Positions 3,346 to 56,527 of a stretch of 63,459 nucleotides of DNA are shown here, piece after piece. A program made the translations under genes and the position numbers. The stretch is taken from positions 1-63,459 of the forward strand of contig NZ_JASBRW010000056.1 in assembly GCF_030149235.1 (NCBI RefSeq), written 5' to 3'. The notes below the pieces were generated by a model, which searched no databases, was not told where the DNA came from, and was given only the letters and a program-made list of their open reading frames with translations. The DNA comes from Maricaulis sp. (GTDB lineage: Bacteria > Pseudomonadota > Alphaproteobacteria > Caulobacterales > Maricaulaceae). The first letter of the stretch is position 1. Each line of letters starts with the position of its first letter.

Positions 3346-4689
3346 ATGAGCACGTTGGACCTAGCTAACCGCCTGGCCTTTCTCGAACTCGACGACGCCA
3401 CCCGCCAGTCCCTGCGCGAGATCAGACCTCTGATCGAGCGGGAAATGCCGGACGTGCTCAATGCCTTCTATGCGCATATTGCCCAGCATGATGACAGCAG
3501 CGGCTTTTTCTCCGATCCGTCCCGGGTGGCACACGCCAAGCAAAAGCAAAGCGAACATTGGGGTCGCATGCTCGATGCCCAGTTCGACGAGGCCTATATC
3601 CACTCCGCGCGCACCATCGGTCAGGTTCACAACCGGATCGGTCTCTCACCGACCCTCTATATGGGCGGGTATTCCTTTGTCATGGCGCGAATCCAGGCTG
3701 CGATCATCGAGGACGGCTACAGCCGCCTGCATAATCGCAGCGCCGAAACGGCCGAGCGTGTCGCCGCTTTCACCCGCGTTGCGATGCTCGACATGGACCT
3801 GGCGCTCGAGGTCTATAGCGAGAGCCGCAAGGCTGATGAGGACAAGGCCCGCATCGAAGCGCTCACGGCGGAGTTCGAGCAGCAGGTCATCGCCATCGCC
3901 GACCAAGTCCTCTCCGCCGCGACCAGTGTGAAACAAGCCACCGATTCAATTGCCGAGAATGCCCGCAGCAGCGGGGAGGAGATGAATCAGGCCTCGATGC
4001 GGTCAACCGATGTACGCAAATCGGCCGAGAGCGCTGCCGCCTCGACCACGGAAATGACGGCCTCTATCGCGGAGATCGCGCGCCAAGCCAGTGACACCGC
4101 CACGCAGAGCAGTTCGGCGTCCCAGTCGGCCCAGGTCACAGTCGAGACCATGTCCCAGCTGGCCGGCGCCGCTGAAAAGATTGGTGAGATCGTTACCCTG
4201 ATCGAAGGAGTTGCGGAACAGACCAACCTGCTGGCGCTGAATGCCACCATCGAGGCGGCGCGGGCCGGGGAGGCCGGCAAGGGCTTCGCAGTGGTGGCCT
4301 CCGAGGTCAAGGCGCTCGCCAGCCAGACCGGCAAGGCGACTGAGGATATCTCTCACCAGATTGCCGGCATGCAGGAAACGGTCAGCCGCGCCGTGCGCGA
4401 AATCGATACCGTCAGCGCCTCGATCGAGGATGTCAGCGCGACCGGTGCTTCGATCAGTGCCGCGGTGGAAGAACAGAACGCGGCCACGGGTGAGATTTCC
4501 CGCAGTGCCGAAATGACGGCCGGTGCCGCCGCCGAGCTCGATAAGCTTGTCTCGCGGGTCGGTGAGGGCGCGCGCTCAGCTTATGAAGCCTGCCGCGCCG
4601 TCGCCGGTGAGGTGGATGATTTGCAGGCCCAGTCCAAGGCGATGCGCGAAAACATCACCGCCTTCCTTAGCAAGCTGCGCGCGGCCTAG
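3346..4689 (+). CDS. Globin-coupled methyl-accepting chemotaxis protein (soluble)
   Basis: 447 aa with no membrane segment. Residues ~1-155 form a globin-coupled sensor domain, with the hallmark [18 protein letters not shown] whose His (about residue 95) would be the proximal heme ligand. Residues ~185-445 are the methyl-accepting signalling helices, with the hairpin tip [20 protein letters not shown] followed by [15 protein letters not shown]. Family members bind heme and sense O2 or other gases, signalling to CheA/CheW (HemAT type). Start chosen at 3346, where GAAGG sits 9 nt upstream, rather than at an ATG 14 codons earlier. No C-terminal CheR-tethering pentapeptide is seen. Divergent from hemF; its stop overlaps that of the helicase gene. 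Confidence 0.93.
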
Positions 4690-49428: not shown

Positions 49429-50046
49429 CTACCCTTTGGCCTCGACCTCGGCCAGTACCGTTTCAAACCGTTCCAGGAAGAGCAGCTGGGCTTGTTTCAC
49501 CGGCAGGGGGCGAATGGCGATCTCCAGCCCGGCCGGCGGCCGGCCGAAGAAATTGACCGATTCCTCATGCGTGAAGCCGGCGATCTGGGTCGCTTCGAAA
49601 TAGGCGCAGATCATGTCGGCGCGCTTGATCTTGCGCTTGTTTTCCTTGGACAGCTTGGGCGGCAGACCGAAGCGAAGATGCACGGCCGCTTCCAGCCGGT
49701 CTTCAAAGGCGCGGTAGTCCACGCCCAGAGCCGCTTTGAACGGGCTGATCATATCGCCGATGACGTATTCCGGTGCATCATGCAGCAGGGCGGCGAGGCG
49801 CAGTTTCGCATCAAGACCCGGATAGAGGCTGTCGAGAATCTGAAGAACCACAACGGAATGCTCGGCAACGGAGAAGGCGTGATCGCCCTTGGTCTGGCCG
49901 TTCCAGCGCGCCACACGGGCCAGGCCGTGCGCGATATCCTCGATTTCCACATCAAAGGGGGAAGGGTCGAGAAGGTCCAGGCGCCGGCCGGAAATCATGC
50001 GCTGCCAGGCGCGTGGGGCTTTCGACTTCGCGGCGTCTTTGGACAT
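49429..50046 (-). CDS. HD-domain hydrolase (YfbR-like)
   Basis: 205 aa from the ATG at 50046 (GAGGAAA ~9 nt upstream). HD-superfamily metal ligands: HAFSVAEHS, then LRLAALLHDAPEYVIGDMISPFK and KRADMICAYFEA. This spacing resembles YfbR-like 5'-deoxynucleotidases. A nucleotidase role is plausible; the cofactor metal and substrate are unknown. First gene ahead of the nadQ-like regulator, with a 10-nt gap. The open frame extends far upstream without family features. Confidence 0.82.
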   Translation of the reverse strand: MSKDAAKSKAPRAWQRMISGRRLDLLDPSPFDVEIEDIAHGLARVARWNGQTKGDHAFSVAEHSVVVLQILDSLYPGLDAKLRLAALLHDAPEYVIGDMISPFKAALGVDYRAFEDRLEAAVHLRFGLPPKLSKENKRKIKRADMICAYFEATQIAGFTHEESVNFFGRPPAGLEIAIRPLPVKQAQLLFLERFETVLAEVEAKG

Positions 50047-50196
50047 GCGGGACGTTTCCTCATCAAGCGGGCGCCGGGGTGTAGCAGAAGCGCTTTGACC
50101 TTGCCAACAGCCCTGCGCGTGTTTGACGCGCCGGAAGTGCTGGACGCGGCCGCCCGGGCAGGTTGATATGATGACAAACAAATGAGGGAGAAATCC

Positions 50197-50571
50197 ATGT
50201 CCTTGACCCGTATCGTCATGCGCCTCGGCCGTAATCCGGATGCCGGCTACCCTGAGGGCGATGATAATCACGGCTATGTCGTTGTCGCACCGCTGGACAA
50301 GGACGGGCATCTCGATGTCGAGCTCTGGCGGGCCGAACGCGCCAAATGCACCGTTGACCGCTTCTCGCCCGATGAGGCTGAAAAGGCAGATGGCTGGCTG
50401 ACCCATCGCGGCAGCCACTGGTTCTTCCATTATGACGAAGAACATGAAGGCCCGGATGAGCCGGTCTTCCGCCTCGGTGAGCATGTCATGCGTGTCGGCG
50501 AATACCTCACCATCCACGAAGCCGATGGCGATGATCTGACCTACAAGATCACCGAGGCGCAGCCGGTTTAG
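50197..50571 (+). CDS. Conserved hypothetical protein
   Basis: 124 aa from the ATG at 50197 with GGGAGA upstream. Acidic, no membrane segment: TRIVMRLGRNPDAGYPEGDD, a central VDRFSPDEAEKADGWLTHRG, WFFHYDEEHEGPDEPVFRLG and a final YLTIHEADGDDLTYKI. Not recognised. Monocistronic, divergent from the HD gene and convergent with the lipoprotein gene. Confidence 0.75.
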   Translation: MSLTRIVMRLGRNPDAGYPEGDDNHGYVVVAPLDKDGHLDVELWRAERAKCTVDRFSPDEAEKADGWLTHRGSHWFFHYDEEHEGPDEPVFRLGEHVMRVGEYLTIHEADGDDLTYKITEAQPV

Positions 50572-50613
50572 TGACTTGCCCCCTCCTCCGTCAGCGGGGG
50601 AGGGCGCTCACAC

Positions 50614-51624
50614 CTATTCCTCAGCGACCAGCGCCAGCATCGACCGGTCCGGGCTCACGGCCAGGCGGGTGACGCCGTTATGGCCGGCGCCGGCGAGGTC
50701 GAAGATGGCCTGCCAGCTGCCCTCGCCATCGCGCCATACGATCTGGTCGCCATGGGTGGACAGGAAGTCGACCGTGTCATCAGGCGCGCCGATGGAAACG
50801 AAGTCCTGGCTGGTGCCGGGTAGATCGAACAGGGCCACGGCAGTGCCGCTGGCAAAATCGAGCGTATGCACCGTATGTGCGCCGGTTTCGGCATCCCCCA
50901 CGGAGAAATAGGCCGCCTGGCCGCGGGGTGCGCGGAACAGGGTCCGGCCGGGATTTTCGGCAATCTGGGTGACGGTTTCCGGCTCGGTGGTGCGATCGAT
51001 CAGCTGCAGGGTGAAGGGCCCTTCGCTGCCCGGCTCACCGAGATAGAAAACGGCGACATGGTTCATGTCCCCGGAAAAGACATAATAACCGGCCGGGGCG
51101 AGGTCATGGGCCAGCTCGCGTTCGGAATTGTCGAAACGGGCCAGCGTCGCATTGCCGGCATAGCCGCCTTCCGGCTGCAGCAGATAGGTCAGTCCCATGC
51201 CATTGGGCGCGATACGCGGCGAGTATTCGTTTTCCACCGGAGTGCGAGTGACCGGCTGGGTGTTGCCGGAAGCAATATCGAGGCGCCAGATATCGGTCTC
51301 ACCGCTTACATTATCACCGGCGGTGTAGAGCAGGGCGGTGCCGTCGGGCGTGAAGAAGGGCTGGTTGTCATAGCCCGGCCGGTCGATCTGGGTGACGCGA
51401 TCGCCCAGTGCCGGCGTACCGTCTTCCCATTCCAGCGTATAGATGAAGATGTCATTGCCCGGCATCGCCGGAGTCGCGTCCTCCGCGGCCTCTTCTGCCG
51501 CGGGCTGAGCCTCTTCAACGACGGCTTCCGGCGTGTCTGCGGGGGCGTCCTCGACCGCTTCCTGGTCTGGTGCGGAGCAGGCGGTGAGGGTGAGAAGGGC
51601 GATGCCGAAAGCCGGATATTTCAT
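50614..51624 (-). CDS. Lipoprotein with TolB-like beta-propeller repeats
   Basis: 336 aa from the ATG at 51624. Lipoprotein signal peptide with lipobox LTLTACS. After an Ala/Glu-rich linker come repeated PD40-type strands (QPFFTPDGTALLYTAGD, ETDIWRLDIASGNTQPVTRT, YSPRIAPNGMGLTYLLQP, TRLAVSPDRSMLALVAEE), typical of TolB/WD40-like propellers. Likely a lipid-anchored periplasmic protein; role unknown. The KAS III gene ends 11 nt upstream on the same strand, so both may be co-transcribed. Confidence 0.8.
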   Translation of the reverse strand: MKYPAFGIALLTLTACSAPDQEAVEDAPADTPEAVVEEAQPAAEEAAEDATPAMPGNDIFIYTLEWEDGTPALGDRVTQIDRPGYDNQPFFTPDGTALLYTAGDNVSGETDIWRLDIASGNTQPVTRTPVENEYSPRIAPNGMGLTYLLQPEGGYAGNATLARFDNSERELAHDLAPAGYYVFSGDMNHVAVFYLGEPGSEGPFTLQLIDRTTEPETVTQIAENPGRTLFRAPRGQAAYFSVGDAETGAHTVHTLDFASGTAVALFDLPGTSQDFVSIGAPDDTVDFLSTHGDQIVWRDGEGSWQAIFDLAGAGHNGVTRLAVSPDRSMLALVAEE

Positions 51625-51635
51625 CGTATCTGTTC

Positions 51636-52751
51636 CTATCGTTTGCGCACGGCAGCAGCGCCGACGCCATAGCCCGCGCCGAAGGCGCACATCACGCCGT
51701 GTTCGCCCGAAGCCATGTCCTCGGAGTTCTGCTCGAAATTGATGACCACTGAAGACGAGGAGGTATTGCCGTATTCGTGCAGGATGCCCGGGGCGTTTTC
51801 CTCGGTGCGGTCGCGGCCGAGAATGCGTTTGGCGATCATGTCGACCATGCGGATATTGGCCTGGTGCAGCCAGGTCCGGCGCACATCGGCCGGTTCCAGC
51901 CCGATATCCTGCATCATCGTGCGGGCGACGGTCGGCGCGAAGCCGACCACGTCCTTGAAGACCTTGTGACCGTCCTGGTCGAGACCTGGCGCATAATCGG
52001 GCTGCACCGTGCGCTCGGCCGCGTTGATGAAGCCGAAATCAGAGCGCAGGGCGATGGAATACTTGTTCTGACAATGCGTGCCGACCACGTCCCAGCCGCC
52101 ATCCTGGCCCTCATCGGCCTCGACGAGAATGGCGCTTGAGGCATCGCCGAAGATGAAGTGCACATCACGGCGCGAATGCACATTGATACAGGTCATGATT
52201 TCTGGCGAGCAGACCAGCATGCGCCTGGCCTGGCCGGACTGGATCATGCCATTGGCGATATGCAGGCCGTATAGGGCCGAGGCGCAGGCCATGGTCAGGT
52301 CAAAGGAAAACCCGTTCGAGCCGATCATCTCCTGGATCTCACAGGCCAGGCCCGGGAAATTACGCTGCTGGGCGGAGGAGGCGACGATGACGCCATCTAC
52401 GTCCGCTCCGGAGACACCGGCCTTTTCCAGGGCCGGCGTGACTGCCTTCATGGCGAACTCGGCCTGAAAGGCGACCTCTTCGAAGGCGCGCGGCGCAATT
52501 TTTGGCGTCATCGTGTCGATATTGAGAATTCCCGACTTCTCAACGACATGACGGCGTTCGATGCCGGAGGCATTCTTGATAAAGTCGACACTCGACAAAA
52601 GCTGCTCGGCCATGTCGCCAGAGGCGATGGCGGCGGCATTGTCGGAATTGAAGCGCTCGGCCCAGGCATTATAGCTGGCAACGAGTTCCTCATTGGTAAT
52701 AACGGCTTCCGGGATGTAATGCCCCGTCGACCGGATAATGCTTTTGCGCAC
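51636..52751 (-). CDS. 3-oxoacyl-ACP synthase III family protein (copy 1)
   Basis: 371 aa, longer than FabH. Thiolase fold with the catalytic triad in place: Cys in FDLTMACASALYGLHIA, His in RTWLHQANIRM and Asn in LHEYGNTSSSSVVI. GQARRMLVCSPEIMT and HFIFGDASSAILVE are family segments. It condenses an acyl group with malonyl-ACP or a related donor. The second copy is at 54489-55604, beyond amt. The FabH2-like length suggests priming with longer acyl-CoA, an inference. Substrate unknown. Confidence 0.85.
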   Translation of the reverse strand: MRKSIIRSTGHYIPEAVITNEELVASYNAWAERFNSDNAAAIASGDMAEQLLSSVDFIKNASGIERRHVVEKSGILNIDTMTPKIAPRAFEEVAFQAEFAMKAVTPALEKAGVSGADVDGVIVASSAQQRNFPGLACEIQEMIGSNGFSFDLTMACASALYGLHIANGMIQSGQARRMLVCSPEIMTCINVHSRRDVHFIFGDASSAILVEADEGQDGGWDVVGTHCQNKYSIALRSDFGFINAAERTVQPDYAPGLDQDGHKVFKDVVGFAPTVARTMMQDIGLEPADVRRTWLHQANIRMVDMIAKRILGRDRTEENAPGILHEYGNTSSSSVVINFEQNSEDMASGEHGVMCAFGAGYGVGAAAVRKR

Positions 52752-52918
52752 GATTATTGGCCCGTTTCTTCCCTCGCCATTCAGCCTAGCCGATGATTTC
52801 GTCTAATCAATGCGGCGCTGCACCGTAAAACAAACGTGCATTCCCGGTTCCAGGCCGGGTTAATTCGCCCAAAACTTTCCGTATGAGCGTTATTCAGCGG
52901 AAAACTTCACCGACCCCC

Positions 52919-52947
52919 TTGACCTCCTGCTGCGCTGCACCAATCAT
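52919..52947 (+). promoter_or_regulatory. Candidate promoter for the amt leader/sRNA
   Basis: TTGACC (52919-52924), exactly 17 nt, then AATCAT (52942-52947). Five of six and four of six matches to sigma-70 hexamers. Transcription would begin near 52954, upstream of a strong terminator and of amt. Confidence 0.5.
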
Positions 52948-52953
52948 TGTTGC

Positions 52954-53072
52954 GACGCAGCAATCGAGTCTGTCTCGAGGCGCTGCAGCGAGTTTTTAGC
53001 GTCGAAACCACTCCTCCCCGGTTGAAGACGTATAACTGGCCCGGCTGCTCAACCGCAGCCGGGCCATTTTTT
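52954..53072 (+). ncRNA. Candidate ~120-nt leader RNA or sRNA upstream of amt
   Basis: The stretch from the promoter-like sequence to the terminator has no reading frame of interest and would give ~120 nt of RNA. It contains CTCCTCC at 53011-53017, the exact complement of the amt ribosome-binding stretch GGAGGAG (53234-53240), and a 13-nt segment at 52949-52961 (just at or before the 5' end) complementary in 12 positions to 53204-53216. It could act as a terminating leader of amt or as a trans sRNA. Read by eye; not folded. Confidence 0.45.
53038..53072 (+). terminator. Strong intrinsic terminator inside the amt leader
   Basis: Perfect 11-bp arms GGCCCGGCTGC (53038-53048) and GCAGCCGGGCC (53055-53065), 6-nt loop, then ATTTTTTC. 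It points along the + strand, where no upstream protein gene exists, so it must end an RNA made from within 52752-53037. Confidence 0.85.
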
Positions 53073-53233
53073 CTGTCAGCCGAAAATTTTTGCGCGTCTG
53101 CACGGTTTTGAGGCAGGTTTGCACTAAATTCGAGCGCAATCGACCCTTCCGCACAATATCCGCGCAAATGCATGGACAGGCTGGCAGCCCTGTTCCTAGC
53201 TCTGCTGCGACGCAACATGCCAGTAGCGGATGT

Positions 53234-53240
53234 GGAGGAG
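53234..53240 (+). promoter_or_regulatory. Ribosome binding site deciding the amt start
   Basis: GGAGGAG, 6 nt before the GTG at 53247. It is the only strong Shine-Dalgarno near the family-typical start and is complementary to CTCCTCC in the leader. Confidence 0.7.
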
Positions 53241-53246
53241 ATCGTC

Positions 53247-54458
53247 GTGGATAGCGGAAATAATGCCTGGGTGCTGACATCGACGGCTCTGGTCTTGATG
53301 ATGACCCTGCCGGGCCTGGCGCTCTTCTATGCCGGTATGGTGCGGCGCATGAATGTACTTTCCACGATGATGCATAGCTTTGGCGCGGCGGCGGTTGGGA
53401 CGGTGCTGTGGGCGCTGGTGGGCTATTCCCTGGCCTTCTCTGATGGCGGTCCGGTCAATGCCTTTGTTGGCGGGCTGTCCAATGCCGGCCTGGCGGGGAT
53501 TGCGCCTGAGACGATGAATGGCGATCTGCCGGCCAATCTCTTCCTCATGTTCCAGCTCACCTTCGCCATTATCACCGTGGCGATCATCGCCGGTGCGGCG
53601 GTGGAGCGGATCCGGTTCTCGGCCTTCCTGATTTTCGCGGCCTTCTGGTTGATTCTGGTCTACGCCCCGGTGTGCCACTGGGTGTGGGGCGGTGGTTTCC
53701 TGGGAGATGCCGGCAAGCTCGATTTTGCTGGAGGCGCGGTGGTCCATATCAATGCCGGTGTCGCTGGCCTGGTCCTGGCCAAGGTGCTTGGTCCGCGGCG
53801 CGGCTGGCCGGGCGGGGCGCTGATCCCGGATAATCTCGTCCTCACCCTGATCGGTGCCGGCATGCTCTGGGTGGGCTGGTTCGGCTTTAATGGCGGCTCG
53901 GCCCTGGCGGCCGACGGGGCTGCGGCCCATGCCTTCGTCACGACCCAGATTGCAGCTGCGACCGCAGCGCTGACCTGGATGATCCTGGAATGGGCCCTGC
54001 GCGGCAAGGCCAGCGCGCTGGGCGCCGCGTCAGGCGCGGTCGCGGGCCTGGTGGCGATTACCCCGGCTGCCGGATTCGTGCCCGCCTGGGCAGCATTCAT
54101 CATTGGTGCAGGCGGCGCGGCAGGGGCCTATTGGGGCGTGACGGGGCTGAAACGCCTGCTCAAGATTGATGACAGCCTCGATGCCTTCGGCTTGCACGGG
54201 GTCGGCGGATTTGTCGGGGCGGTGCTGACCGGTGTGTTCGCGGTCGAAGCGATCGGCGGAGCGGCCGGGGCGATTGAGGGCAATCTGCTGCAGGTCTGGA
54301 CTCAGACCTGGGGCGCGCTCTCGGTGGCTGTTTACAGCGGTGCGGTGACCTTTATCATCCTGTTCGTGATGTCGAAATTCATGAGTCTGCGCGTCAGCGA
54401 GGAAGCTGAACGCAAGGGGCTCGACACCGAACTGCATGGGGAATCGGTCGGGAGCTAG
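53247..54458 (+). CDS. amt: Ammonium transporter
   Basis: 403 aa from a GTG start at 53247, chosen for GGAGGAG upstream and the canonical Amt beginning DSGNNAWVLTSTALVLMM. About 11 membrane helices. Conserved features: LPGLALFYAGMVRRMNVLST, the twin histidines in DFAGGAVVHINAGVAGLV and DSLDAFGLHGVGGFVGAVLTG, and GWFGFNGGSALAAD. Conducts NH4+/NH3 across the inner membrane. No glnK gene is adjacent, unlike most amtB loci. ATGs at 53172 and 53217 would add a non-homologous N-terminus. Flanked by two paralogous KAS III genes. Confidence 0.93.
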   Translation: MDSGNNAWVLTSTALVLMMTLPGLALFYAGMVRRMNVLSTMMHSFGAAAVGTVLWALVGYSLAFSDGGPVNAFVGGLSNAGLAGIAPETMNGDLPANLFLMFQLTFAIITVAIIAGAAVERIRFSAFLIFAAFWLILVYAPVCHWVWGGGFLGDAGKLDFAGGAVVHINAGVAGLVLAKVLGPRRGWPGGALIPDNLVLTLIGAGMLWVGWFGFNGGSALAADGAAAHAFVTTQIAAATAALTWMILEWALRGKASALGAASGAVAGLVAITPAAGFVPAWAAFIIGAGGAAGAYWGVTGLKRLLKIDDSLDAFGLHGVGGFVGAVLTGVFAVEAIGGAAGAIEGNLLQVWTQTWGALSVAVYSGAVTFIILFVMSKFMSLRVSEEAERKGLDTELHGESVGS

Positions 54459-54478
54459 GTCAGCACCCTGGCCGCCGG

Positions 54479-54501
54479 GGAGAAGCGCCTAGCGCTTCTC
54501 C
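54479..54501. other. Perfect hairpin centred on the stop codon of KAS III copy 2
   Basis: GGAGAAGCGC (54479-54488), CTA, GCGCTTCTCC (54492-54501). The loop is the stop codon of the minus-strand gene. No T-run on either side; it may stabilise the mRNA 3' end or act as a weak terminator between convergent genes. Confidence 0.5.
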
Positions 54502-55604
54502 AGGAAGATCGTTCCGGCCGAATAACCTGCACCGAAGGAGCAGATCAGGCCCTTATCGCCCGCCTCGAACCCGTCATGGTGACGGTGGAAGGCGACCAGC
54601 GAACCGGCGCCGGCAATATTGGCGAATTCGTCAAGCACGACCGGAGCCTCATGCGGCTCGAAATCGCGGTCATAGACCTTCTTGGCGATCATCATATTCA
54701 TGTTGATATTCGCCTGGTGCAACCACATCCGCTTCATGTCGGCAGGCGAGAGCTTCATCTTGCCCAGCTCGGTCAGGATGAGCTCGATCACCATCGGGCA
54801 GACTTCCTTGAAGACCTTGCGGCCTTCCTGCACGAAATAGCGCTCCTCGAAGACCGGCTCGGGGTCTTCGGAGGCGTTCAGGAATCCGAAATTCGAGCGG
54901 ATATTGTTGGAATACTGGGTCACCATCCGCGTGGAGAGGATGTTCCAGCCTTCATCACCGGCGACGTCTTCCGCCTCGATCAGGGCCGCCACGGCGACAT
55001 CGCCGAAGATGAAATGGCTGTCGCGATCCCGGAAATTGAGCTGCGGCGTGGTGATTTCCGGGGTCACGACCAGAACCGATTTGGCCATCCCGGTCTTGAT
55101 CATGTTGATGGCGGAGATCATGCCGAACGTGCCGGAGGAGCAGGCCACCGACATGTCATAGCCGAAGCCCTCAATGCCCAGCGCCTGCTGGATCTCGATG
55201 GCGATACACGGATAGGTGCGCTGCATCGACGTGGCCGAGCAGATCACGGCGTCGACATCCTTCGGGTCGCGGCCGGCATTGTCCAGCGCCTGCTTGGCTG
55301 CCGCGAGGCCGGCCTCGGCCATCAGCGAAATCTCTTCATTCGGTCGCGGCGCAACGCGTGGGCGCATGCGCTCCACATCAAGCACGCCAGCCTTGTCGAC
55401 CGTATAGCGCGACTTGATGCCAGAGGCCTTTTCGATGAAGGCGGTCGAGGAGGCGTTGAGCGGCTCAACGACACCGCGCTCAATGGCGTCGGCGTTTTCG
55501 GCGTTGTGCTTTTCGACATAGGCGTTGAAGCATTCGACCAGCTCATCATTGCTGACCGTTTCTTCCGGATGCCAAAGTCCGGTCGACCGGATCACTGCAT
55601 TCAT
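54489..55604 (-). CDS. 3-oxoacyl-ACP synthase III family protein (copy 2, FabH2-like)
   Basis: 371 aa from the ATG at 55604 (GAGGGAG upstream). Triad residues: Cys in YDMSVACSSGTFGMI, His in RMWLHQANINM, Asn in DEFANIAGAGSLV. The N-terminal half (ERGVVEPLNASSTAFIEKAS, GIKSRYTVDKAGVLD) resembles the long FabH2 of Pseudomonas, which uses medium-chain acyl-CoA and so feeds beta-oxidation products into fatty-acid synthesis; this is from memory, not a search. Paralogous to copy 1 throughout, same length. Confidence 0.85.
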   Translation of the reverse strand: MNAVIRSTGLWHPEETVSNDELVECFNAYVEKHNAENADAIERGVVEPLNASSTAFIEKASGIKSRYTVDKAGVLDVERMRPRVAPRPNEEISLMAEAGLAAAKQALDNAGRDPKDVDAVICSATSMQRTYPCIAIEIQQALGIEGFGYDMSVACSSGTFGMISAINMIKTGMAKSVLVVTPEITTPQLNFRDRDSHFIFGDVAVAALIEAEDVAGDEGWNILSTRMVTQYSNNIRSNFGFLNASEDPEPVFEERYFVQEGRKVFKEVCPMVIELILTELGKMKLSPADMKRMWLHQANINMNMMIAKKVYDRDFEPHEAPVVLDEFANIAGAGSLVAFHRHHDGFEAGDKGLICSFGAGYSAGTIFLEKR

Positions 55605-55709
55605 ACGCCTTACTCCCTCGGTTTGGGCTGGCGGGAAATTAGTGGCATTGGCCTTGAACGTCACCCGGTCAGCTGCGTTTGGCGGCCCGGGATCGAAAAA
55701 GCAGGACGG

Positions 55710-55919
55710 CTAGTGCTCGACCCGGTGGCGCGGCTGGACCCGGTCGGAGCCATCCTCGCCCTCGCAGATCCATTCGCCCGGCGCCGTCGCATCATGCGGT
55801 CCGGCCGGCTCACAAACCGCAGCGCCCATCTCGGCGGCGGTGGGCGTGTCGAAGGTCGAGCAGGCGGTCATGGCCAGACCGTTCACCGCGATCGCCAGTC
55901 CTGTCAAAAGCGTGCGCAT
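55710..55919 (-). CDS. Small lipoprotein
   Basis: 69 aa from the ATG at 55919 with GAGGAGA upstream. Signal peptide (RTLLTGLAIAVNGL) and lipobox LAMTACS, giving a lipid-anchored mature peptide of ~50 residues with two further cysteines (VCEPAGPHDA, WICEGEDG). Not recognised. It lies between tag and the KAS III gene, transcribed in the same direction. Confidence 0.65.
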   Translation of the reverse strand: MRTLLTGLAIAVNGLAMTACSTFDTPTAAEMGAAVCEPAGPHDATAPGEWICEGEDGSDRVQPRHRVEH

Positions 55920-55945
55920 ATCGTCTCCTCGCTGACCCAGCCCGG

Positions 55946-56527
55946 CTAGCGAACGAAGGCTTGCACGGCTTGGTGACGTGGACAAGTGATCTCATGGTCA
56001 TTGACCAGGCCGACCGCCTCCATGAAGGCATAGACGATCACTGGCCCGACGAATTTGAAGCCGCGCTTTTTCAGGTCCTTGGAGATCTGGGCGCTGAGCG
56101 GGGTGTTGGTTGGGATATCCTTGAGGCGCTTGTATTCGTTCTGGATTGGCGTGCCGTCGACGAAGTCCCAGAGATAGTCGGAAAAATCGAGACCCTGATC
56201 GCGCATCTCCAGATAGGCGCGGGCATTGCCGATGGCGGCATCGATTTTGGTCCCGGAGCGGATAATGCCGGGATTGCCCAGCAGCTCGGTCTTCTTGGCC
56301 TCGTCATAGCGGGCAATCAGCTCCGGTTCGAACCCGTCAAAGGCGTCGCGCAGGGTGTCGCGCTTGCGCAGGATGGTGATCCAGGCGAGGCCGGCCTGGA
56401 AGCCGTCCAGCATCAGCTTTTCCCACAGGGCCTGCGCGTCGTATTCAGGCACACCCCATTCGGTGTCGTGATAATGGGCGTAGAGGTCGTCGCCGGGCGT
56501 CACCCAGGCGCAGCGGTGTTCGGTCAT
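55946..56527 (-). CDS. tag: DNA-3-methyladenine glycosylase I
   Basis: 193 aa. Tag features: HRCAWVTPGDDLYAHYHDTE, WGVPEYDAQALWEKLMLDGF with the aromatic pocket, AGLAWITILRKRDTLRDAFD, then FKFVGPVIVYAFMEAVGLVN and a C-terminal DHEITCPRH whose Cys and His act with the N-terminal ones as the zinc site. It excises 3-methyladenine from alkylated DNA. Start 11 nt after the ygfZ stop, forming a ygfZ-tag pair. Confidence 0.95.
   Translation of the reverse strand: MTEHRCAWVTPGDDLYAHYHDTEWGVPEYDAQALWEKLMLDGFQAGLAWITILRKRDTLRDAFDGFEPELIARYDEAKKTELLGNPGIIRSGTKIDAAIGNARAYLEMRDQGLDFSDYLWDFVDGTPIQNEYKRLKDIPTNTPLSAQISKDLKKRGFKFVGPVIVYAFMEAVGLVNDHEITCPRHQAVQAFVR

Follow-up and report, generated by a model that had tools for sequence, protein, structure and literature searches.

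Organization of the kasUp-amt intergenic region

The stretch of DNA analyzed here, referred to as the window, comprises 63,459 nucleotides of a contig of Maricaulis sp. and contains the ammonium transporter gene amt and, divergent to it, the ketoacyl-synthase-III-like gene kasUp. The region between the two genes carries a predicted small RNA (sRNA) gene with a putative promoter and an intrinsic terminator, followed by a second putative promoter, the Shine-Dalgarno (SD) sequence of amt and several short conserved boxes (Table 1). The sRNA includes a hairpin whose loop is complementary to SD sequences (anti-SD hairpin).

Table 1. Genes and predicted features of the kasUp-amt region (G008, sister genome with the same layout).
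Feature	Position in window	Strand	Basis or remark
kasUp, ketoacyl-synthase-III-like (label from sequence)	51636–52751	-	Flanks the sRNA/amt intergenic region
Putative sigma-70-like sRNA promoter, TTGACC-N17-AATCAT	52919–52947	+	Sequence; in G008 TTGACC is kept and AATTAT is found
TGC-rich box TGCTGCGCTGCA within the sRNA promoter spacer	52928–52939	.	Sequence
Box TGTTGCGACGCAGCA at the start site of the sRNA	52948–52962	.	Inverted repeat TGC-N3-GCA; common to the amt promoter
Predicted sRNA, ~119 nt	52954–53072	+	Fold z -5.6; block conserved in G008
5′ hairpin of the sRNA	52957–52986	+	Sequence present in the window genome and G008 alone
Anti-SD hairpin, stem CGUC..AACC / GGUU..GACG	53000–53030	+	17 genus genomes, compensatory changes
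Exposed 10-nt loop ACUCCUCCCC	53010–53019	+	UCCUCCCC invariant in genus copies
Intrinsic terminator of the sRNA	53037–53072	+	Stem pairs, covariation
GAGGCAGGTTTGCAC, conserved box preceding the amt promoter, apart from the sRNA	53110–53124	.	Alignment of 17 amt upstream regions
Putative amt promoter TGGACA-N18-TAGCTC (TGGACA 53173–53178, TAGCTC 53197–53202)	53173–53202	+	Conserved in genus
Box TGCTGCGACGCAACA at the start site of amt	53203–53217	.	Sequence, alignment
amt SD sequence GGAGGAG	53234–53240	+	Sequence
amt, ammonium transporter	53247–54458	+	GTG start picked by alignment with relatives

The promoter-like sequence TTGACC-N17-AATCAT had been pointed out in an earlier reading of the DNA made from its letters (the sequence-only reading) and is present at the position given in Table 1. 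Its hexamers are ordinary consensus matches, and taken alone it is weak evidence, four promoter-like sites being found in 50000–56000 compared to 1.4 ± 1.1 expected. The 5′ end of the sRNA was inferred from the position of the -10 region. The same reading had described a perfect-stem terminator pointing into amt with no protein gene before it, which was confirmed: the terminator has a perfect stem of 11 bp (12 bp with an outer T-A pair), a 6-nt loop and a T6 tract, and is the strongest by number of pairs among five terminator-like sites in 50000–56000 (4.6 ± 2.7 expected). No open reading frame of at least 60 amino acids was found on the plus strand within 52800–53170, and in the window genome the sRNA module follows no gene. 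The predicted fold of 52954–53078 has an energy of -56.8 kcal/mol (z -5.6), and none of 200 shuffled sequences was equally stable. Near the start of kasUp, the region additionally contains an inverted repeat, TGCAC-N12-GTGCA (52819–52840), a possible operator, whose arms are longer in G008 (GCGCTGCAC/GTGCAGCGC).

Compensatory changes in the sRNA helices

Base pairing was evaluated in 17 sequences of the genus (16 distinct) over 22 drawn pairs, with 500 shuffles and slid structures as controls. In the alignment, 92.6% of the cells were paired and 30 cells showed a double change, compared to 10.3 ± 2.3 in the shuffles (none of 500 reached 30) and at most 5 in the slid structures; because kinship within the genus and the family makes the sequences non-independent, such counts overstate the number of events. 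The covariation score was higher than that of every shuffle. Two further measures did not exceed chance by the shuffle control, namely the number of pairs with a double change (9 versus 6.9 in the shuffles, 44 of 500 being as high) and the number of further pair types (19, with 103 of 500 shuffles as high); in addition, for two of the drawn pairs, pairing is lacking in 11 of the 16 sequences. The stem of the anti-SD hairpin varies from AACC/GGUU to GGCC/GGCC or GGCC/GGCU and the loop sequence UCCUCCCC is constant (17/17). As judged from this alignment, the compensatory changes support both helices and indicate that the structure is under selection. Fold, covariation and the invariant loop thus favor one of the two proposals of the sequence-only reading, a small RNA with an anti-SD loop.

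Position of the module relative to amt

To follow the module, 61 genomes were searched with the leader DNA and then with covariance models. The hairpin-terminator module adjoins amt in 17 of 19 genomes of the genus, with E values of 7e-14 or better in the covariance model search. In 15 of these it is located 3′ of the amt stop codon on the same strand, the hairpin starting 16–133 nt past the stop (18 amt flanks read). Only the window genome and its sister G008 carry it 5′ of amt, with identical layout and a leader identity of 90%. As to the remaining two genomes, G003 has an amt orthologue with no module found, and no amt was found by this search in G010. The gene kasUp is the 5′ neighbor of amt in all 17 loci of relatives that were read, and kasDown lies beyond the 3′ end of amt, in some relatives separated from it by up to ~5 kb. 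The comparison of these loci indicates that the neighborhood of amt was kept and that the module switched sides. The sequence-only reading had named a lack of conservation in relatives as a refutation; terminator and anti-SD loop proved conserved there, and the leader position did not.

Six genomes (G011, G001, G012, G013, G007, G017) have a palindromic insert with CGGCCGGTTGGGGGCCGGA and GGGGTTGCGGCGC between the amt stop codon and the sRNA module, which resembles a repetitive extragenic element. In addition, 8 of 18 genus genomes contain, at most 330 nt past amt, an open reading frame of 26–29 codons with a good SD sequence that encodes a hydrophobic peptide (e.g., MRRTDLFEFASNTLDAVVWVGFVVVLSGL). 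It follows amt and the sRNA module on the opposite strand (loci L078, L079, L083, L086–L090), is absent from the window genome and G008, and possibly specifies a small membrane protein that has escaped annotation.

When the regions upstream of amt from the window, G008 and 15 further genomes were aligned, a promoter consensus near TCGAC...CCTAGCTC emerged, the TAG of the -10 region being kept in 16 of the 17 sequences with G003 as the exception. In the window, both this promoter and the conserved box GAGGCAGGTTTGCAC are located 3′ of the sRNA terminator, from which an amt 5′ untranslated region of ~40 nt follows. Most likely, on this sequence evidence, the region 52954–53072 is not an amt leader and the terminator does not lie inside a transcript leading into amt. 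Control of amt by sigma-54 was considered for GAGGCAGGTTTGCAC and rejected upon inspection by eye of this box, as the spacing is wrong. In the search for amt genes, the window genome and G008 yielded a single one, and 16 other genus genomes have a second one with 31–35% identity.

Is amt itself the target?

The sequence-only reading had proposed an RNA that can end before amt and/or masks its ribosome binding site. In the form of an attenuator, transcription from the promoter at 52919 would yield a leader that either ends at 53072 or reads into amt, depending on nitrogen. The terminator does face amt with no intervening gene, and CTCCTCC at 53011–53017 is, as had been noted, exactly complementary to the amt SD sequence, a match to be seen against 12 occurrences of GGAGGAG and 95 of GGAGG on the two strands of the window. 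When the proposed folding of 52954–53260 was carried out, pairing between the anti-SD loop and the SD sequence of amt indeed proved possible in the 307-nt transcript (z -2.75, none of 100 shuffles), although the two would not normally be on one transcript given the separate conserved amt promoter 3′ of the terminator. Moreover, the long form still contains the terminator helix in its minimum-energy fold, which thus shows no antiterminator. Between the window genome (G000) and G008, identity is 92–97% for the parts from promoter to terminator and 30% (gaps counted) for the spacer that connects the terminator with the amt box, a pattern to be expected if the two units are independent. Since a leader role is impossible for a module located 3′ of amt, as it is in 15 of 17 genomes, we regard attenuation as highly improbable, and masking of the ribosome site from within the same transcript does not agree with these data either.

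In cis or feedback control of amt, the RNA, wherever encoded, would pair with the SD sequence of amt. The exact 7-nt complement in the window and the linkage to amt in 17 genomes of the genus agree with such control. However, around the start of amt, the longest stretch complementary to the sRNA loop drops from 7 nt in the window to 5 nt in G008, 6 nt in G005 and G002, 3 nt in G004 and 4–5 nt in the other 11 genomes compared, and several of these complements in relatives are located away from the SD sequence. Of the genes roughly called in the window, 57 in number, 12 also have at least five complementary bases before a possible start. The complement of the amt SD sequence is therefore not kept across the genomes compared, which argues against amt as the conserved target, and feedback on amt appears improbable.

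The module in amt 3′ regions outside the genus

In a survey of the family outside the genus, 59 amt places were found and 32 loci read. An anti-SD motif followed by a terminator was present after amt in 19 of the 32, all of them among the 23 loci with 63–69% amt identity and none among the nine with at most 58%. Eighteen could be aligned and share a core, UCCUCCCUGACU / TCCTCCCTGACT, of 12 nt that is invariant in 18/18, the terminator stem being variable; they represent 18 of the 20 amt orthologues read from two genera (g5 and g14). The remaining positive locus, L383, has TCCTCC in a different context and was kept outside the alignment. The four of 23 orthologues lacking the motif (L264, L374, L377, L382) comprise both of one genus and one each from two positive genera. 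Copies within the genus keep both halves of the core, UCCUCCC and, preceding the terminator, ACUGG, between which lies the 3′ arm of the hairpin. The presence of core and terminator after amt in two other genera of the family indicates that the position in the 3′ untranslated region (3′UTR) is ancestral and that of the window derived. A location in the 3′UTR with the end at the terminator of the host mRNA, as in 3′UTR-derived sRNAs, was accordingly found for the 15 genus relatives and for the 18 orthologues of the two other genera, the window copy excepted.

At E ≤ 0.005, the covariance model R2 gave matches in 42 of the 137 genomes of the family, 17 of them being the genus copies. The matches outside the genus were not counted as members: among 13 loci examined, the 11 that gave a sequence were different RNAs or mere terminators, with the loop CGUCUCCUCCCCGAU in several of them, and none had amt in its flanks (tblastn).

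A wider survey covered 261 distinct amt 3′UTRs from 243 loci; 100 of these 3′UTRs lack a detected terminator and cannot score positive. Eighty of the loci came from a contig search with 50–61% amt identity (among the matches listed), and R2 gave 15 matches on these 80, some of which were merely terminators. Among the matches listed, alphaproteobacterial amt 3′UTRs outside the family with a detected terminator had the anti-SD motif before it in 21 of 105 cases, including 9 of 27 from named alphaproteobacterial records and 12 of 78 from the class-wide search, by a permissive detector that scored L233, L302 and L317 positive by short pyrimidine matches alone. The reverse motif was found in six of the same 105 (Fisher p 0.003). 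The motif was absent from the 28 named non-alphaproteobacterial 3′UTRs with a terminator (0/28), the assignment of the 80 named records to alpha- or non-alphaproteobacteria being taken from the record titles; eight ambiguous 3′UTRs, one with a terminator and none positive, were set apart. The reverse motif (6/161; 6/105) is a fairer control than other terminator-like sites (28/631), which are biased by sites in coding DNA. Linkage to glnK did not separate positives from negatives (26/72 unlinked versus 14/60 linked, p 0.13). L159 and L161 have two amt genes separated by a P-II gene, and the copy found upstream of one amt actually follows the other. In these sequence comparisons, the link between motif and amt in the wider Alphaproteobacteria is clear, though carried by a minority of genomes.

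The survey also bears on an alternative according to which the conserved hairpins would stabilize or terminate mRNAs, the CCUCC loop being without a function in trans. In the 15 genomes in which it follows amt, the module could be the amt terminator with a structured 3′UTR, and many amt terminators do without the motif (121 of 161 3′UTRs with a detected terminator). On the other hand, it is the loop, dispensable for termination, that is invariant, the 12-nt core is unchanged in two other genera where the terminator stem varies, and the module of the window follows no gene that it could terminate. A function restricted to termination is thus unlikely.

A box shared by the sRNA and amt promoters

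Directly after the -10 regions of both the sRNA and the amt promoter, and in the same place relative to them, lies a box TG(T/C)TGCGACGCA(G/A)CA. The sequence-only reading had noticed it as an inverted match at 12 of 13 positions and counted it toward RNA pairing. The count holds for the aligned 13-mers 52948–52960 and 53204–53216; the sequence TTGCGACGCAGCA sits at 52950–52962, one base off the position that had been assigned to it. Since the box is nearly palindromic, the inverted match is also a direct repeat, and the similarity is better read as a DNA box, such as an operator, that two promoters would share, with no RNA pairing involved. The ends of both promoters align without gaps over 41 nt with a score of 15, compared to 9.2 ± 1.6 in shuffles, of which 4 of 500 reached 15. 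When the sRNA promoter region was compared with the amt upstream regions of seven relatives, scores were 8.5–13 and no better than shuffles. The evidence for a copied promoter in these alignments is therefore modest, and most of it comes from the shared box.

PhaR binding sites printed in the part of PMC12542648 that was available, one of them in the mmgR promoter, resemble the TGC boxes described here. The N-terminal domain of PhaR (PF07879) had no match in this 90%-complete assembly, and the pattern TTGCGNCGCANCA occurs at 12 sites of the genome (one in the backward control), which besides the two at this locus are mostly in or beside unrelated genes. Control of the TGC boxes by PhaR is for these reasons not claimed.

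The arrangement in the window could have arisen if the promoter-amt-module unit was duplicated in tandem and then lost its first amt copy and its second module copy, which would give the present order. In this way, the module of the window lineage would have moved in front of amt and gained a promoter resembling that of amt.

Relation to known anti-SD sRNAs

The whole window gave no Rfam match at gathering score. The best weak match at the sRNA was alpha-r14 (RF02344) with 26.6 bits (E 0.005 for 551 bases), below the gathering score of 58.8, and a scan of the entire own genome with RF02344 listed other loci, the sRNA locus being absent. For RF00519 (suhB), the Rfam entry of the alpha-r8 family, no match was obtained in 52750–53300 up to E 5 (gathering score 41). 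Weak matches were seen in some of 11 amt 3′UTR copies of the family that were compared with this model (best 27.9 bits, E 0.1) and in the genus copy of G004 (21.7 bits). The sole match to the CcsR1 model (E 0.8) was at another place, in L272.

These results raise the question whether the sRNA is a diverged, mis-scored member of the alpha-r14 (NfeR1) or alpha-r8 (MmgR) family. That alpha-r14 was the top match fits with this, and so does the sequence UUUCCUCCCU, which according to the accessible part of PMC12559287 is single-stranded between a weak hairpin and the terminator in MmgR-type RNAs: several amt 3′UTRs of the family read UUUCCUCCCU before the terminator, and some of them, as well as G004, gave the weak RF00519 matches. 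The window itself has the loop ACUCCUCCCC instead. Alpha-r14 RNAs are described in the section of PMC10746234 consulted as having three hairpins, each with an unpaired CCUCCUCCC. The window sRNA shares the three-hairpin outline and the location of an anti-SD motif in a hairpin loop; however, it has one motif only, misses the gathering scores of both families and lies outside the RF02344 matches of its genome, and its relatives' copies reside in the amt 3′UTR. Membership in either family is therefore doubtful, and the sequence comparison speaks for a variant of the anti-SD sRNA type already described that falls outside the Rfam families tested.

With alpha-r8 RNAs, as portrayed in excerpts of PMC12559287 and PMC7143759, the sRNA has in common that it is short and carries an anti-SD core near an intrinsic terminator. 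It differs in failing the RF00519 model, in the placement of the motif in a hairpin loop and in its neighbor, amt instead of the N-formylglutamate amidohydrolase gene usually found next to alpha-r8 RNAs, which include SisA-D of Caulobacter (PMC12559287, in part). GlnZ, an enterobacterial sRNA from the glnA 3′UTR (PMC9731577, in the text available), resembles the copies of the relatives in its origin from the 3′UTR of a nitrogen-assimilation mRNA, but derives from another gene and bacterial class; no shared sequence is claimed, and the window RNA has left the 3′UTR. The CcsR or cuckoo RNAs of Rhodobacter, as outlined in part of PMC10253847, are likewise RNAs of the CCUCC type that are co-transcribed with a protein gene preceding them, but there the host is a DUF1127 gene followed by four RNAs in a row, whereas here a single copy lies beside amt. 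Among titles and abstract beginnings of the open-access literature, no report of an amt-linked anti-SD RNA was found, and in the review PMC9170634, the terms 'amtB' and 'ammonium transporter' do not occur.

Proposed function of the sRNA

Taken together, the sequence data suggest that 52954–53072 is probably an sRNA gene with its own promoter and terminator that encodes a trans-acting anti-SD RNA and descends from an amt 3′UTR module that moved in the window lineage. The support consists of the anatomy of the module, its conservation and base pairing, its two placements and the separate amt promoter, all of which are read directly from the genomes compared. Transcription of the gene would start at its own promoter and stop at its terminator, ahead of the amt promoter, and the RNA would present the anti-SD sequence ACUCCUCCCC in a hairpin loop. 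The predicted structure combines an accessible conserved anti-SD sequence with a terminator, and trans-acting sRNAs such as NfeR1 and SisA are built in this way. Most likely, the sRNA would pair with the ribosome binding sites of other mRNAs and lower their translation. SisA reportedly represses its targets, likely via its anti-SD 10-mer (PMC12559287, in part), and NfeR1, for which a connection to nitrogen is described, is reported to pair with mRNAs through its anti-SD motifs (available section of PMC10746234). MmgR is nitrogen-dependent and induced by NtrC according to the portion of PMC7143759 at hand. In view of the linkage to amt and of the control reported for MmgR and NfeR1, a role of the sRNA in nitrogen metabolism is plausible by analogy.

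The anti-SD loop alone names no targets. Among the 57 rough gene calls of the window, at least six complementary bases before a possible start were found in two and seven in one; the 7-nt site before a known start is the amt SD sequence. An ATG at position 3973 is preceded by a 9-nt stretch complementary to the loop, which was discarded as a target candidate because it lies inside a coding frame.

At its ancestral place in the amt 3′UTR, the RNA could be cut from the amt mRNA or simply end it. We tentatively consider, as a possibility that falls somewhat short of being probable, that in many Alphaproteobacteria amt specifies a bifunctional message whose 3′UTR releases an anti-SD sRNA, a counterpart of GlnZ, and that the window lineage documents the birth of a free-standing sRNA gene on a copy of the host promoter, with co-regulation kept. 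If so, each time amt is expressed, the anti-SD RNA in the 3′UTR would also modulate how other genes are translated. Alphaproteobacterial anti-SD sRNAs tune nitrogen and carbon metabolism, and in the parts of the cited literature that were accessible the loci described for them differ from amt; a conserved anti-SD RNA in the amt 3′UTR would tie ammonium uptake directly to post-transcriptional control. The two arrangements, in the 3′UTR in 15 genomes and under an own promoter in two, offer a natural test of how a 3′UTR element becomes an independent sRNA gene.

Further anti-SD RNA candidates

A second RNA with a CUCCUCCCC-type loop and a terminator was observed in the family (L129, L131, L133, L134, L124–L127) and, as L093, in the own genome (C20:5494-5588), where it has two CUCCUCCCC-type hairpins. 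Four of the loci follow a gene for a LysR-type regulator, a label from sequence reading, in an arrangement that we take to be reminiscent of the AbcR/LsrB locus. At four other loci of the genus (L219, L220, L223, L095), CUCCUCCCC segments are located in or near hairpins before strong terminators, which suggests, as far as sequence can tell, further anti-SD RNAs in the genus. Finally, the exact string TCCTCCCTGACTGGYCC is present in 25 stretches of viral contigs (L393–L417), possibly by chance or as part of prophage-borne anti-SD RNAs.
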